The notes under the pieces were generated by a model. The model was given only the letters and a program-made list of their open reading frames with translations. It had not been told where the DNA came from and ran no database searches. From assembly GCA_009785215.1 (NCBI GenBank), contig WQWU01000015.1, positions 1 to 46,145 on the forward strand: a stretch of DNA of 46,145 nucleotides, read 5' to 3'. The DNA is from Treponema sp. Lineage in GTDB: Bacteria > Spirochaetota > Spirochaetia > Treponematales > Breznakiellaceae. Positions 7,231 through 11,666 of this stretch are shown here, in pieces (the stretch's first letter is position 1; the number at the start of each line of letters is the position of its first letter). Position numbers and translations under genes: made by a program.

Positions 7231-8379
7231 ATGGGAAATAAAACAGAAAAACTTCAGGCAAAACTTGTTCTGGAAGACGGAAGCGAATATTTGGGATGGG
7301 CTTTTGGCAAGAACCGAAACATCGCAGGGGAAGTTGTTTTTAATACCGGCATGTCCGGGCTTATTCAGAACCTGACAGATCCTGGATGCAAGGGGCAAAT
7401 ATTTGTATCAACCTGGCCAATGGCGGGAAATATAGGCGTGCCTGTGAATAAAAACGGCGCGCCTTTTTTTGATGAATTTGGAATTCCCGATATTATTGAA
7501 TCGGAAAAAGTTCATGTTTCCGGTCTTATTGTTTCCGATCTTTGCGAAGAACCAAGCCATTACTCCATGAAAATGTCATTATCTGCCTGGCTGGAAAAGG
7601 AAAATGTTCCCGGCATTTACGGCATTGATACACGTTCCATTACTATCCGCCTGCGCGACCGCGGAACAATGCGCGGAAAAATCATTATAGAAAAAAAATC
7701 AAACGACGGTTTTGGCGATATTTCAATAAATAAAATAAATTCGTCAAACCACGACGGTGTAGATCTGAAAGAAATTAAAACATATCTTCCAGCTTCAAAA
7801 AAAGCAGGCGTAAAGATTGCCCTTATAGACTGCGGCGTTAAAGCAAATGTTATCCGCTGTCTTATAAACCGAGGCGTTGAGGTTAGCCGCATTCCCTGCA
7901 ATCACGATTTGGATAAAATTGATTATGACGGACTGATAATTTCCAATGGACCTGGGGATCCAAAAGAATATAAAAAATTAATTGAGTTTGTCCGTAAAGC
8001 ATTATCCTCGGATAAACCGGTTTTTGGTTTGGGGCTTGGAAACTTAATCATTGCACTTGCAATAGGAGCCGATACTTTTAAGCTGCCTTTTGGACACAGG
8101 GGGCAAAACCAGCCAAGTTATATTTATGATGCAGCCGAAGACGGCACAAACAAGTGTTATATCACTACGCAGAATCACGGTTATGCAGTACGCGCCGAGT
8201 CGCTTCCAAAAAACTGGAAGTTATGGTTCGTTAATGCCAATGATGGAACTGCCGAAGGAATTATCTGTGAAAACAAACCGTTTTCTGCCGTACAGTTTTA
8301 TCCTGAAGGATGCCCTGGTTCGAGAGATACAGAATTTGTTTTTGACCGCTTTATCGGACAAGTCAAGGAGAAAAAATAA
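7231..8379 (+). CDS. carA: Carbamoyl-phosphate synthase small subunit with inactivated glutaminase site
   Basis: The 382-residue protein has the N-terminal CPSase small-chain domain (about 1-150) and a class I amidotransferase domain (about 195-380). The usual nucleophile motif GICLGHQ reads G266-LGLGNL: Gly268 replaces Cys, and Asn271 replaces His of the GHQ. The catalytic His of the GHPE motif is Tyr357 (QFYPEG), while Glu359 remains. Glutamine hydrolysis should therefore be lost. Segments RGQNQPS, TQNHGYAV and VNANDGTAEGI resemble eukaryotic CPS, including vertebrate CPS I, which also reads GNLI here. It overlaps carB by one base (TAATG). AGAGAGG precedes the start. A structural, ammonia-only role is inferred; the residue changes themselves are read directly. 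Confidence 0.93.
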   Translation: MGNKTEKLQAKLVLEDGSEYLGWAFGKNRNIAGEVVFNTGMSGLIQNLTDPGCKGQIFVSTWPMAGNIGVPVNKNGAPFFDEFGIPDIIESEKVHVSGLIVSDLCEEPSHYSMKMSLSAWLEKENVPGIYGIDTRSITIRLRDRGTMRGKIIIEKKSNDGFGDISINKINSSNHDGVDLKEIKTYLPASKKAGVKIALIDCGVKANVIRCLINRGVEVSRIPCNHDLDKIDYDGLIISNGPGDPKEYKKLIEFVRKALSSDKPVFGLGLGNLIIALAIGADTFKLPFGHRGQNQPSYIYDAAEDGTNKCYITTQNHGYAVRAESLPKNWKLWFVNANDGTAEGIICENKPFSAVQFYPEGCPGSRDTEFVFDRFIGQVKEKK

Positions 8380-11300
8380 TGAAATCAGAAAATAAAAGAA
8401 AATTACAATTACCGCAGAAAATTCTTATCCTGGGATCAGGCGGATTAAAAATAGGACAAGCCGGAGAGTTTGACTACTCTGGTTCACAGGCAATAAAAGC
8501 GCTGCGCGAAGAAGGCATTAAAACAGTTTTAATTAATCCGAATATTGCAACAATTCAAACCAGCGAAGGAATGGCAGACTCTACTTATTTTCTTCCTGTA
8601 ACGCCGGAATATGTCCGCAAAGTAATAGAAAAAGAAAAACCGGACGCTCTGTTGCTTTCATTCGGCGGACAAACAGCGCTTAACTGCGGCGTTGCTCTTG
8701 AAAAAGAAGGCACTCTTGCAAAAAATAATGTAAAAGTTCTCGGCACTCCTGTAAAAACAATCGAAGACACAGAAGACCGTCAATTATTTGTTAAACGCCT
8801 TAACGAAATAGGCGCTCTTTCTCCAAGAAGCGTTGCTGTAACAGATACCGCAGCCGCTTTAAAAGCAGCAAATGAAATCGGCTTTCCTGTAATGGCGCGT
8901 GTTGCCTTTGCTCTAGGCGGCGCAGGTTCAGGCATTTGCCGCAACGAAGCCGAACTTACAAAAAGATGTACTATGGTTTTTGCCAGAAAAAACGAAATTG
9001 ACAGACCTCCGCAAATCCTTGTAGAAGAATGGCTTGGCGGCTGGAAAGAAATTGAATTTGAAATTGTCAGAGATGCCTACGATAACTGTATAACGGTTGC
9101 CAGTATGGAAAACTTTGATCCGCTCGGCATTCATACAGGCGAAAGTATTGTAGTATCCCCGGCGCAGACACTATCAGATTCAGAGCTTGGCAAATTAAGA
9201 AGAATTGGTATAGAGGTAATCCGTCACCTTGGTATAGTAGGTGAATGTAATATCCAGTATGCGCTTGATCCGTTCTCTGAAGATTACAGAATCATAGAAG
9301 TTAATGCAAGACTTTCACGAAGCTCTGCCCTTGCATCCAAGGCAACCGGCTACCCTCTTGCGTTTATCGCGGCAAAAATAGCCATTGGTTATTCAATGCT
9401 GGATATAGAAAACAGAATTACACACTCAACAAAATCATTCTTTGAACCGGCATTGGACTACATTGTAGCAAAAGTTCCACGCTGGGATTTAACAAAATTC
9501 AAAAATGTAGACCTTCGGATCGGTTCAGAAATGAAATCTGTCGGCGAGGCTATGTCCATCGCAAGAACATTCGAAGAAGTAATTCAAAAAGCTCTTCGTA
9601 TGACAGGAATCGGCGCACCTGGCCTTTGCGGCGATGATTTCCTCTGCGGAAGAAATTTTTCAGGTCCTGGTAGTATCGATGCTAAGATACGCGAAGGACT
9701 TCTAAGTCCTACAGACAGGCGAATATATGTCATTTACCGCGCTTTGGCCGAAGGCTGGACTGTAGACAAGATTCACAAATATTCAAGGATAGACAAGTGG
9801 TTTTTGCACAAAATTGCAAATATCAGAAAAACAGAAGAAAAACTGCGCGAAGCTGGAAAAAAAGGCATAACAAGAGAACTTATTGCTCAGGCTAAACAGT
9901 ATGGTTTTTCCGATGCTCAGATCGGCAGTTTTATAAAATTATCAGAAATGGAAGTCCGCGCGATCCGCAAGGAACACCGGGTCCTTCCTGCAATAAAACA
10001 AATTGATACGCTTGCAGCTGAGTATCAGGCAAAAAATAATTACCTTTATATGACTTACGGAAACGCATCTGCTCCGGGAAGTGCGCCTCAAATAGACGAT
10101 GTAACTTCTTCCGGGCGCGGCGTTATGGTTCTTGGTTCCGGTGTCTACAGAATTGGCTCCAGTGTAGAGTTTGACTGGTGTTGTGTAAACGCAGTGCAGA
10201 CAGCGCGTAATCTGGGGCGGTATTCGATCATGGTAAATTGTAATCCGGAAACCGTTTCTACAGACTATGACATGTGCGACAGATTGTACTTTGAAGAACT
10301 TACCCTTGAACGTGTTCTGGATATTTATGAAAGAGAAAACCCCAACGGCATAATTGTCTCAATGGGAGGACAAACCCCAAATAATCTTGCAACAAAACTT
10401 TCAGATGCAGGTGTTCATATTTACGGAACAACGCCAAAGTCCATTGATATGGCAGAGGATAGAAACAAGTTTTCTGCGCTTTTGGATGAACTTGGTATTG
10501 GTCAGCCGGAATGGAAAGAACTAACAGATCATGCTTCTGCAAAAGAATTTGCAAAAACTGCAGGTTATCCTGTTTTAATCCGTCCAAGTTATGTATTATC
10601 TGGCGCAGCAATGAATGTTGCATGGGATGATACAAGCCTTGAAAAATTCCTGAATCTAGCATCTGAAGTTTCGCCGGAACATCCTGTTGTCATTTCCAAG
10701 TTTGCAGAAAATGCCAGGGAAATAGAAATTGATGCTGTCGCGCGTAAGGGAGAAATTTTATTCCATGCCATTACAGAACACATTGAAAATGCCGGCGTTC
10801 ATTCCGGTGATGCTACAGTTGTTCTTCCTGCACAGCGTCTGTATATAGAAACATTAAGAAAGATTAAACAAATATGCGAAAAAATAGCAAAAGCGCTGGA
10901 TATTACAGGACCATTTAACATTCAGTTCCTTGCGCAAAGAGGTCAGGTTAGCGTAATTGAATGCAACTTGCGCTCCAGCCGAAGCTTCCCGTTCTGTTCA
11001 AAAGTAAGCCGCGTTAACATGATTGAACTTGCTGTTAAAGCAATGCTTGATGAACCTGTAGAAAAATCTACCGTTTCTGCTCTGGAATTGGGATGCGTTG
11101 GCGTAAAAGCGGCGCAGTTTAGTTTTTCCAGATTACATGGAGCAGATCCTGTCAGCGGCGTAGAAATGGCAAGTACCGGAGAAGTTGGCTGTATAGGCTC
11201 AAGCATTTCAGATGCTCTGTTAAAAGCGCTTGTTTCTGTTGGATATAAAATCCCAAAAGGAAAGGCAAAAGTTCTATTATCGACAGGTCCTATGGTAGAT

Positions 11301-11666
11301 AAAATTGACTTCCTTGATTCCGCGCGTAAACTTGTAAAAATGGGTCATGAACTTTATGCATCCCGCGGCACTGCTAAATTCCTTTCGGACAACAAACTGC
11401 CTGTAACAGCTCTTGCCTGGCCGCTGGAAAAGAAAGATCCTAACATTGCAGACATGATTAAAAAGCGCGGAATAGACCTTATCATCAATATTCCAAAAAA
11501 TAATGCAGAACTGGAATTAAAGAATGATTATACCATCCGGCGTATGGCGATTGACTTTGATATTCCATTATTTACAAACATAAAAGTCGCAAAGGAATTT
11601 ATCGATGCGCTTGAAACCCTGCATAACGGAGCAGAACTGGAAATCAAAGCCTGGGAAGAATATTAA
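8379..11666 (+). CDS. carB: Carbamoyl-phosphate synthase large subunit, eukaryote-like
   Basis: This 1095-residue subunit joins bicarbonate, ammonia and two ATP into carbamoyl phosphate. Two ATP-grasp halves are visible (FALGGAGSGIC near 175; RPSYVLSGAAMNV near 735), with the carboxyphosphate and carbamate sites in order. The C-terminal MGS-like regulatory domain (about 960-1095) contains ASRGT, ALAWP and INIPKNN. The AWP stretch and following IRRMAIDFDIPL resemble animal CPS I/CAD rather than E. coli CarB, where a Lys binds UMP. Length is slightly above E. coli (1073). Its stop lies beside the AGCTT tandem repeat and it converges on lolE. The product feeds arginine or pyrimidine synthesis; neither pyrB nor argF is in this window. 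Confidence 0.95.
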   Translation: MKSENKRKLQLPQKILILGSGGLKIGQAGEFDYSGSQAIKALREEGIKTVLINPNIATIQTSEGMADSTYFLPVTPEYVRKVIEKEKPDALLLSFGGQTALNCGVALEKEGTLAKNNVKVLGTPVKTIEDTEDRQLFVKRLNEIGALSPRSVAVTDTAAALKAANEIGFPVMARVAFALGGAGSGICRNEAELTKRCTMVFARKNEIDRPPQILVEEWLGGWKEIEFEIVRDAYDNCITVASMENFDPLGIHTGESIVVSPAQTLSDSELGKLRRIGIEVIRHLGIVGECNIQYALDPFSEDYRIIEVNARLSRSSALASKATGYPLAFIAAKIAIGYSMLDIENRITHSTKSFFEPALDYIVAKVPRWDLTKFKNVDLRIGSEMKSVGEAMSIARTFEEVIQKALRMTGIGAPGLCGDDFLCGRNFSGPGSIDAKIREGLLSPTDRRIYVIYRALAEGWTVDKIHKYSRIDKWFLHKIANIRKTEEKLREAGKKGITRELIAQAKQYGFSDAQIGSFIKLSEMEVRAIRKEHRVLPAIKQIDTLAAEYQAKNNYLYMTYGNASAPGSAPQIDDVTSSGRGVMVLGSGVYRIGSSVEFDWCCVNAVQTARNLGRYSIMVNCNPETVSTDYDMCDRLYFEELTLERVLDIYERENPNGIIVSMGGQTPNNLATKLSDAGVHIYGTTPKSIDMAEDRNKFSALLDELGIGQPEWKELTDHASAKEFAKTAGYPVLIRPSYVLSGAAMNVAWDDTSLEKFLNLASEVSPEHPVVISKFAENAREIEIDAVARKGEILFHAITEHIENAGVHSGDATVVLPAQRLYIETLRKIKQICEKIAKALDITGPFNIQFLAQRGQVSVIECNLRSSRSFPFCSKVSRVNMIELAVKAMLDEPVEKSTVSALELGCVGVKAAQFSFSRLHGADPVSGVEMASTGEVGCIGSSISDALLKALVSVGYKIPKGKAKVLLSTGPMVDKIDFLDSARKLVKMGHELYASRGTAKFLSDNKLPVTALAWPLEKKDPNIADMIKKRGIDLIINIPKNNAELELKNDYTIRRMAIDFDIPLFTNIKVAKEFIDALETLHNGAELEIKAWEEY

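Follow-up and report, generated by a model that had tools for sequence, protein, structure and literature searches.

A carbamoyl-phosphate synthase clade of Treponema that has lost its glutaminase nucleophile and is probably fed by free ammonia

The carA and carB genes of the window

The window, by which we mean the whole stretch of 46,145 nucleotides of a Treponema sp. contig that was analyzed, carries on its + strand a carA gene (7231..8379, an open reading frame of 382 aa) for the small subunit of carbamoyl-phosphate synthase (CPS), with a glutaminase domain that lacks its nucleophile, followed by carB (8379..11666, + strand) for the large subunit, in which all domains are present (CarB domains over cut-off and a TIGR01369 match). 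As a whole protein CarA passes TIGR01368 with 375 bits against a cut-off of 307, and both of its domains, PF00988 and PF00117, are over cut-off as well. The first-pass annotation of this DNA had described frame and domain as intact and carB as overlapping by a single base, and the reading frame, the profile matches and the carB start at 8379 bear this out. A predicted CarA structure, calculated from a six-row alignment, had a mean pLDDT of 52.7 and was too weak for use.

The region of the CarA nucleophile reads VFGLGLGNLIIALAIG, with Gly268 encoded by GGG at 8032..8034 (+ strand) in place of the nucleophilic Cys (E. coli Cys269), and the region of the catalytic His reads QFYPEGCPGSRD, with Tyr357 encoded by TAT at 8299..8301 (+) in place of that His (E. 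coli His353). GLGLGNL is therefore found where Cys-type relatives mostly have GICLGNQ, and FYPE where they have FHPE. Three further residues are replaced: Gly52 (GGA, 7384..7386, +) stands for Ser (E. coli Ser47, Ala in human CPS1), Leu272 (TTA, 8044..8046, +) for Gln (E. coli Gln273), giving GNL as in human CPS1, and Ser364 (TCG, 8320..8322, +) for Pro (E. coli Pro360). We take Ser47, Gln273 and Pro360 of the E. coli protein to be glutamine-site or tunnel residues; Cys269 mutants of the E. coli enzyme retain ammonia activity. Glu359 is kept, so that of the Cys-His-Glu glutaminase triad of TIGR01368 small subunits two members are gone, exactly as had been annotated. The annotation was mistaken in counting Asn271 as a lost His, since Asn occupies this position in 85 of 98 Cys-type genes too and is thus ancestral; the derived change next to it is Gln272 to Leu. 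It had also allowed for a misread TGC at 8032..8034 while arguing against a decayed gene. GGG is read there and the same Gly recurs in 12 species of the genus, ruling out sequencing error, chance or a single decayed gene.

Changes in the large subunit lie at the ammonia gate, with Ala241 (9099..9101, +) at the position of E. coli Cys232 and CPS1 Cys648, and Ser260 (9156..9158, +) at that of E. coli Ala251 and CPS1 Ala667. The gate residues of CPS1 given in PMC4655335, Cys648, Ala667 and Ala729, map to positions 241, 260 and 323 of the window CarB. Of 12 rows of the Gly clade (one of which, G002, has its nucleophile off the contig and is placed by a short CarA fragment together with CarB) nine have Ala at position 241, one has Ser and two, from G017 and G007, have Cys; six have Ser at position 260. 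Cys241 and Ala260 are kept in all 18 Cys-type CarB rows, and the gate is likewise kept in E. coli, in human CPS1 and in the canonical CarBs that were read. Ala323 is unchanged wherever it could be read, row L016 being X at most gate positions, and changes at 242 and 262, which mostly restore the E. coli letter, were excluded from the gate changes. Departures from conserved CarB columns concentrate near the gate (9/43 vs 19/563, p 5e-5 for a region picked post hoc; best-window permutation p 0.013).

Survey of the order and descent of the Gly-type genes

Our survey was confined to the order of the window, where 304 of 390 genomes gave a CarA match and a subset of the matches was read; within the genus there was a match in 31 of 39 genomes. 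The complete alignment has 130 rows, made up of 111 genes of the subfamily, 18 canonical genes and L041, and the 111 comprise 12 Gly species, 3 Cys orthologues of the genus, 6 rows contributed by five further genomes of the order, 19 loci from the order search, 11 operon stretches and 60 genes fetched for the purpose. At the nucleophile site of the subfamily genes there are 13 Gly and 98 Cys, while all 18 canonical genes have Cys; L041 ends before this site and has Ala for Ser52. The genus accounts for 12 of the Gly species and for three orthologues with Cys (G051, G049 and G023). Cys, His, Glu, Ser52, Gln272 and Pro364 are intact in 98/98 Cys-type genes read and the GNQ motif in 85/98, and Glu359 is retained in every one of the 13 Gly genes. 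Two canonical CarA genes, in G053 (L042) and G021 (L025), have Cys together with Leu at the Gln position of GHQ. A literature search of titles and abstracts returned no report of a bacterial ammonia-only CPS or of a CarA without its Cys.

The thirteenth Gly gene, L215, comes from a genome of another genus (G334, 6% contamination) and reads Gly52, Ala272 and Gln357; it has kept Pro364, and its CarB gate is unaltered. It falls beside L041 in a free tree, but a test of a single clade did not reject such a clade (p 0.90), so that one origin and two are both compatible with the trees. L215 and L221 of G334, together with L222 of G041, where Ala replaces Ser52 and the gene leaves the contig before the nucleophile, may represent a second lineage with loss of the glutaminase pocket.

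The other 12 Gly genes, all of the genus, form one clade with support of 100/98 in a tree from which the trait columns had been removed (30 rows, 18 Cys and 12 Gly, G016 being represented by CarA alone and G054, G150 and G002 left out with one subunit missing). The clade is sister to G049, G051 and G023, and within it G017 and then G007 branch first. In one tree human CPS1 appeared inside the Gly clade, which we treat as an artefact in view of its long branch of 3.7 and unsure placement; its highest identity in that tree was 49%, to the Cys-type row L016, and later trees were built without it. The alignment with spirochaete CarA and CPS I that had been proposed in the annotation places the Gly/Tyr loss in a clade of orthologues, and within the genus the loss has diversified across at least twelve species.

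Gene order and reading frames are well preserved. In all 10 Gly-type relatives compared carA and carB are adjacent, and in 7 carA is immediately preceded by an isocitrate dehydrogenase gene. As for the remaining three, this gene is nearly 2 kb further off in G007, G018 starts at a contig edge and none is found in G017 within the 1.3 kb available. The stretches compared of the Cys-type sisters G051 and G049 have no isocitrate dehydrogenase gene. An open, full-length carA is present in 11/12 Gly species (G018 has two pieces at contig ends), and carB is free of in-frame stops in 12/13 genomes, with G002 and G016 seen in part only. Values of dN/dS for the glutaminase domain, to be read with several saturated dS values in mind, are 0.04-0.17 in five Gly pairs and 0.02-0.16 in five Cys pairs.

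Erosion of the glutamine pocket is apparent throughout the clade, where Ser52 is changed in 11/11 genes, Cys268 in 12/12, Gln272 in 11/12 and His357 in 11/12, and where Pro364 is also among the columns conserved in Cys-type genes and changed; counting every Gly-type gene read at position 52, non-Ser residues are found in 12/12. The residues of human CPS1 at positions 52, 268 and 272 are Ala, Ser and Leu, and its His is retained. In two of the Gly-type genes, from G008 and G018, there is a Cys at position 271, away from the place of the nucleophile. Of 179 CarA columns conserved in 20 Cys-type rows, 27 differ in half or more of the Gly-clade members, compared with 28/606 in CarB (Fisher p 8e-6). 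Single pocket changes are weak markers and prove little, because Leu272 (2/18) and Gly52 (1/17) occur in canonical genes that keep their Cys.

Relation to known enzymes and metabolic setting

The liver CPS of land vertebrates runs on free ammonia. Human CPS1 (PDB 5dot/6uel) is the best PDB match of both window subunits, and the likeness to CPS I put forward in the annotation holds, with Ser at the nucleophile of human CPS1 and its GNL motif seen in the alignment. As in CPS I, the nucleophile is lost from an otherwise complete CPS, and also shared are a non-Ser residue at the place of Ser47 (Ala in CPS1), the GNL motif and a tunnel-plugging Gln, window Gln292 by alignment, which corresponds to CPS1 Gln318 in PMC4655335. 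This Gln is found in 96/98 Cys-type genes too and is no marker of the Gly clade. Unlike CPS1, a single fused eukaryotic polypeptide, the window enzyme consists of two chains from separate genes on a bacterial contig, has Gly and not Ser for the Cys, has lost the catalytic His and has an altered CarB gate, whereas CPS1 keeps both His and gate. Several N-acetylglutamate contact residues differ as well: judged by residue count on the alignment against the CPS1 contacts listed in PMC4655335, Thr1394, Trp1410, Asn1437, Pro1439 and Arg1453 are matched, Thr1391 is Ser, and Gln1368, Thr1443, Phe1445 and Asn1449 are unmatched. All rows that have letters there, Gly-type and Cys-type alike, retain the Trp and the Asn-x-Pro of the allosteric domain of CPS1.

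The window CarB scores 1171 bits to human CPS1 vs 821 to E. coli CarB, and a canonical Treponema CarB behaves in the opposite manner (772 vs 1017). In the PDB search the window CarA gave 320 for human CPS1 vs 203 for E. coli. CarA BLASTP does not separate the subfamily cleanly: with filler in the E. coli row and only one stretch scored, 3/4 canonical genes likewise gave a higher score to CPS1. The subfamily claim therefore rests on CarB. The CarB scores, the tunnel-plugging Gln and the Trp/Asn-x-Pro residues together make it look as if the subfamily already had a CPS I-like ground plan when the Cys disappeared, a statement of similarity and not a dated history. E. coli CarAB resembles the window enzyme in subunit make-up, domain families and TIGR01368 and TIGR01369 matches; unlike it, the E. 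coli enzyme keeps Ser47, Cys269, Gln273, His353 and the gate and is glutamine-fed. A review gives glutamine as the physiological donor for E. coli CPS, and PMC6245113 describes use of ammonia at very high concentrations only, a point against an ammonia-fed reading of the window genes. Cys-type CarAB of the same family and order belong to the same subfamily, but their glutaminase site and gate are intact. The CPS III of Alcolapia fish, a eukaryotic enzyme, shifted from glutamine to ammonia via loss of a glutamine-binding residue, according to PMC7657897; unlike the Gly-type CarA, it has kept its triad.

The window assembly (1.9 Mb, 75% complete, 54 contigs) has one CPSase_sm_chain gene. A second, canonical carA, the presence of which the first-pass annotation had considered, was not found in this 75% complete genome; canonical CarAB does occur in 4/12 Gly-type genomes of the genus. 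The Gly-type enzyme is the sole CPS found in 8/12 genomes (G000, G016, G020, G012, G008, G007, G005 and G017), of which four, G007 among them, are 93-94% complete; G020 has 6% contamination, and most genomes surveyed are incomplete MAGs. A canonical CPS lies alongside the Gly-type in G006, G018 and G046, each with a CarA over the TIGR01368 cut-off, and in G013, where the canonical carA is broken over two contig ends, neither piece reaching that cut-off, and CarB is whole; in these four genomes the Gly-type enzyme could consequently be dispensable. The canonical CarBs of G013, G046 and G048 (L063, L065 and L068) have a C-terminal extension that resembles diaminopimelate epimerase, named by eye, in stop-to-stop ORFs of 1345, 1319 and 1357 aa. 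G039 (92% complete) has a CarB of 1087 aa (L224:6484-9744), 40% identical to that of the window, with no CarA over cut-off in the genome and none beside it by eye; this may be a large subunit without a partner.

By motif, the window genome (75% complete) has an ornithine carbamoyltransferase and no aspartate carbamoyltransferase (ATCase) match. Over 13 genomes, the twelve plus G002, both carbamoyltransferases are found in 10, and G000, G012 and G018 have the ornithine enzyme only. A third carbamoyltransferase-like gene of ~400 aa with the motif FRDN/QSTRTR is present in G007, G039 and G023 (L123, L132 and L134). argG passes in 7/13 genomes, so that use of carbamoyl phosphate for arginine may not extend to all genomes; it was not found in G000, G008, G007, G016 and G002. 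No carbamate kinase was over cut-off in the 13 genomes in a profile search. A genome-wide loss of glutamine use is unsupported, since PyrG and PurF of the window genome, named by eye, retain the Cys and the genome also has a glutamine synthetase.

Soil-feeding termite hindguts are high in ammonia. Five Gly-type relatives (G016, G020, G012, G006 and G008) are linked to named records, all Treponema MAGs, with sample codes Emb289P3 (four) and Co191P1 (one). According to PMC7024585, the code Emb289 denotes Embiratermes neotenicus, which feeds on humus, and Co191 denotes Cornitermes, which feeds on litter. The gut niche suggested in the annotation draws support from the termite-gut sample codes of these relatives, not from the window itself.

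An ammonia-fed enzyme and its alternatives

From the sequence comparisons we infer, with a probability of roughly 0.8, that carAB encodes a working carbamoyl-phosphate synthase that is unable to hydrolyse glutamine and takes free ammonia. This ammonia-only reading, already favored in the first-pass annotation, gains support from the clade of orthologues, the eroded pocket, the CPS1 parallels, the gate change in most CarBs, the open frames, the purifying selection and the lack of a second CPS in the 75% complete window genome; counting against it, the gate change is absent in G017, G007 and G334. The best explanation of the likeness is that the Gly-type CPS would have reached ammonia use in parallel with vertebrate CPS I. 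CarA would remain as a structural, perhaps regulatory, partner of CarB, ammonia would enter through a side route or through a tunnel that has loosened, and the carbamoyl phosphate would feed ornithine carbamoyltransferase and, where an ATCase is found, aspartate carbamoyltransferase. Because of the states in the two lowest branches an order of steps can be proposed, in which Cys would have changed to Gly along with loss of Ser47 (as in G017), followed by Gln272 to Leu with loss of the His (as in G007), and then by the gate changes and by Tyr357 and Ser364, each of these two residues being present in most members.

It is conceivable, if improbable, that CarA is a dead subunit en route to loss from a CPS that is little used, carbamoyl phosphate being derived from canonical CarAB or another source. 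Canonical CarAB is indeed present in four of the twelve genomes, and G007 provides two observations that favor such decay and count against an ammonia-fed enzyme, namely an in-frame TGA that splits its carB (L053) and a likely carbamate kinase at 355.8 bits, just under the cut-off of 358. The third carbamoyltransferase-like gene of this genome lies on the same contig as the latter. A dying subunit is hard to reconcile with the frames that are open in the other carB genes and in carA, with the low dN/dS, and with the eight genomes in which no other CPS was found; apart from G007, three of these are 93-94% complete.

Less probable still is that a separate glutaminase partner supplies CarB with ammonia, leaving the enzyme glutamine-fed. 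Such an arrangement would fit with retention of the small subunit, which in E. coli bears the entrance of the tunnel, but only two genes with a class I glutaminase domain were found in the window genome (75% complete), CarA and a PyrG-like one, and no glutaminase is seen among the scanned genes next to carAB. We give as little credence to the idea that CarA now serves chiefly in regulation or ligand sensing, ammonia use being secondary; purifying selection on a glutaminase domain with a lost active site would suit this role, but a subunit that packs on CarB would be under such selection in any case.

If the enzyme is ammonia-fed, a broader proposal follows that we advance tentatively, at somewhat less than even odds: that this is the first bacterial counterpart of CPS I, obligately ammonia-fed, that gut spirochaetes evolved it, by steps whose order can be read in both subunits, out of a subfamily that stands closer to CPS I of eukaryotes than to the E. 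coli enzyme, that it may be the only source of carbamoyl phosphate in several species, and that it perhaps had two origins, in the genus of the window and in G334. Were this true, the clade would show the switch from glutamine to ammonia evolving a second time, with living intermediates in G017 and G007 and an alteration of the ammonia gate not seen in human CPS1, and the order of the steps and the route of free ammonia would become testable in a two-subunit enzyme.
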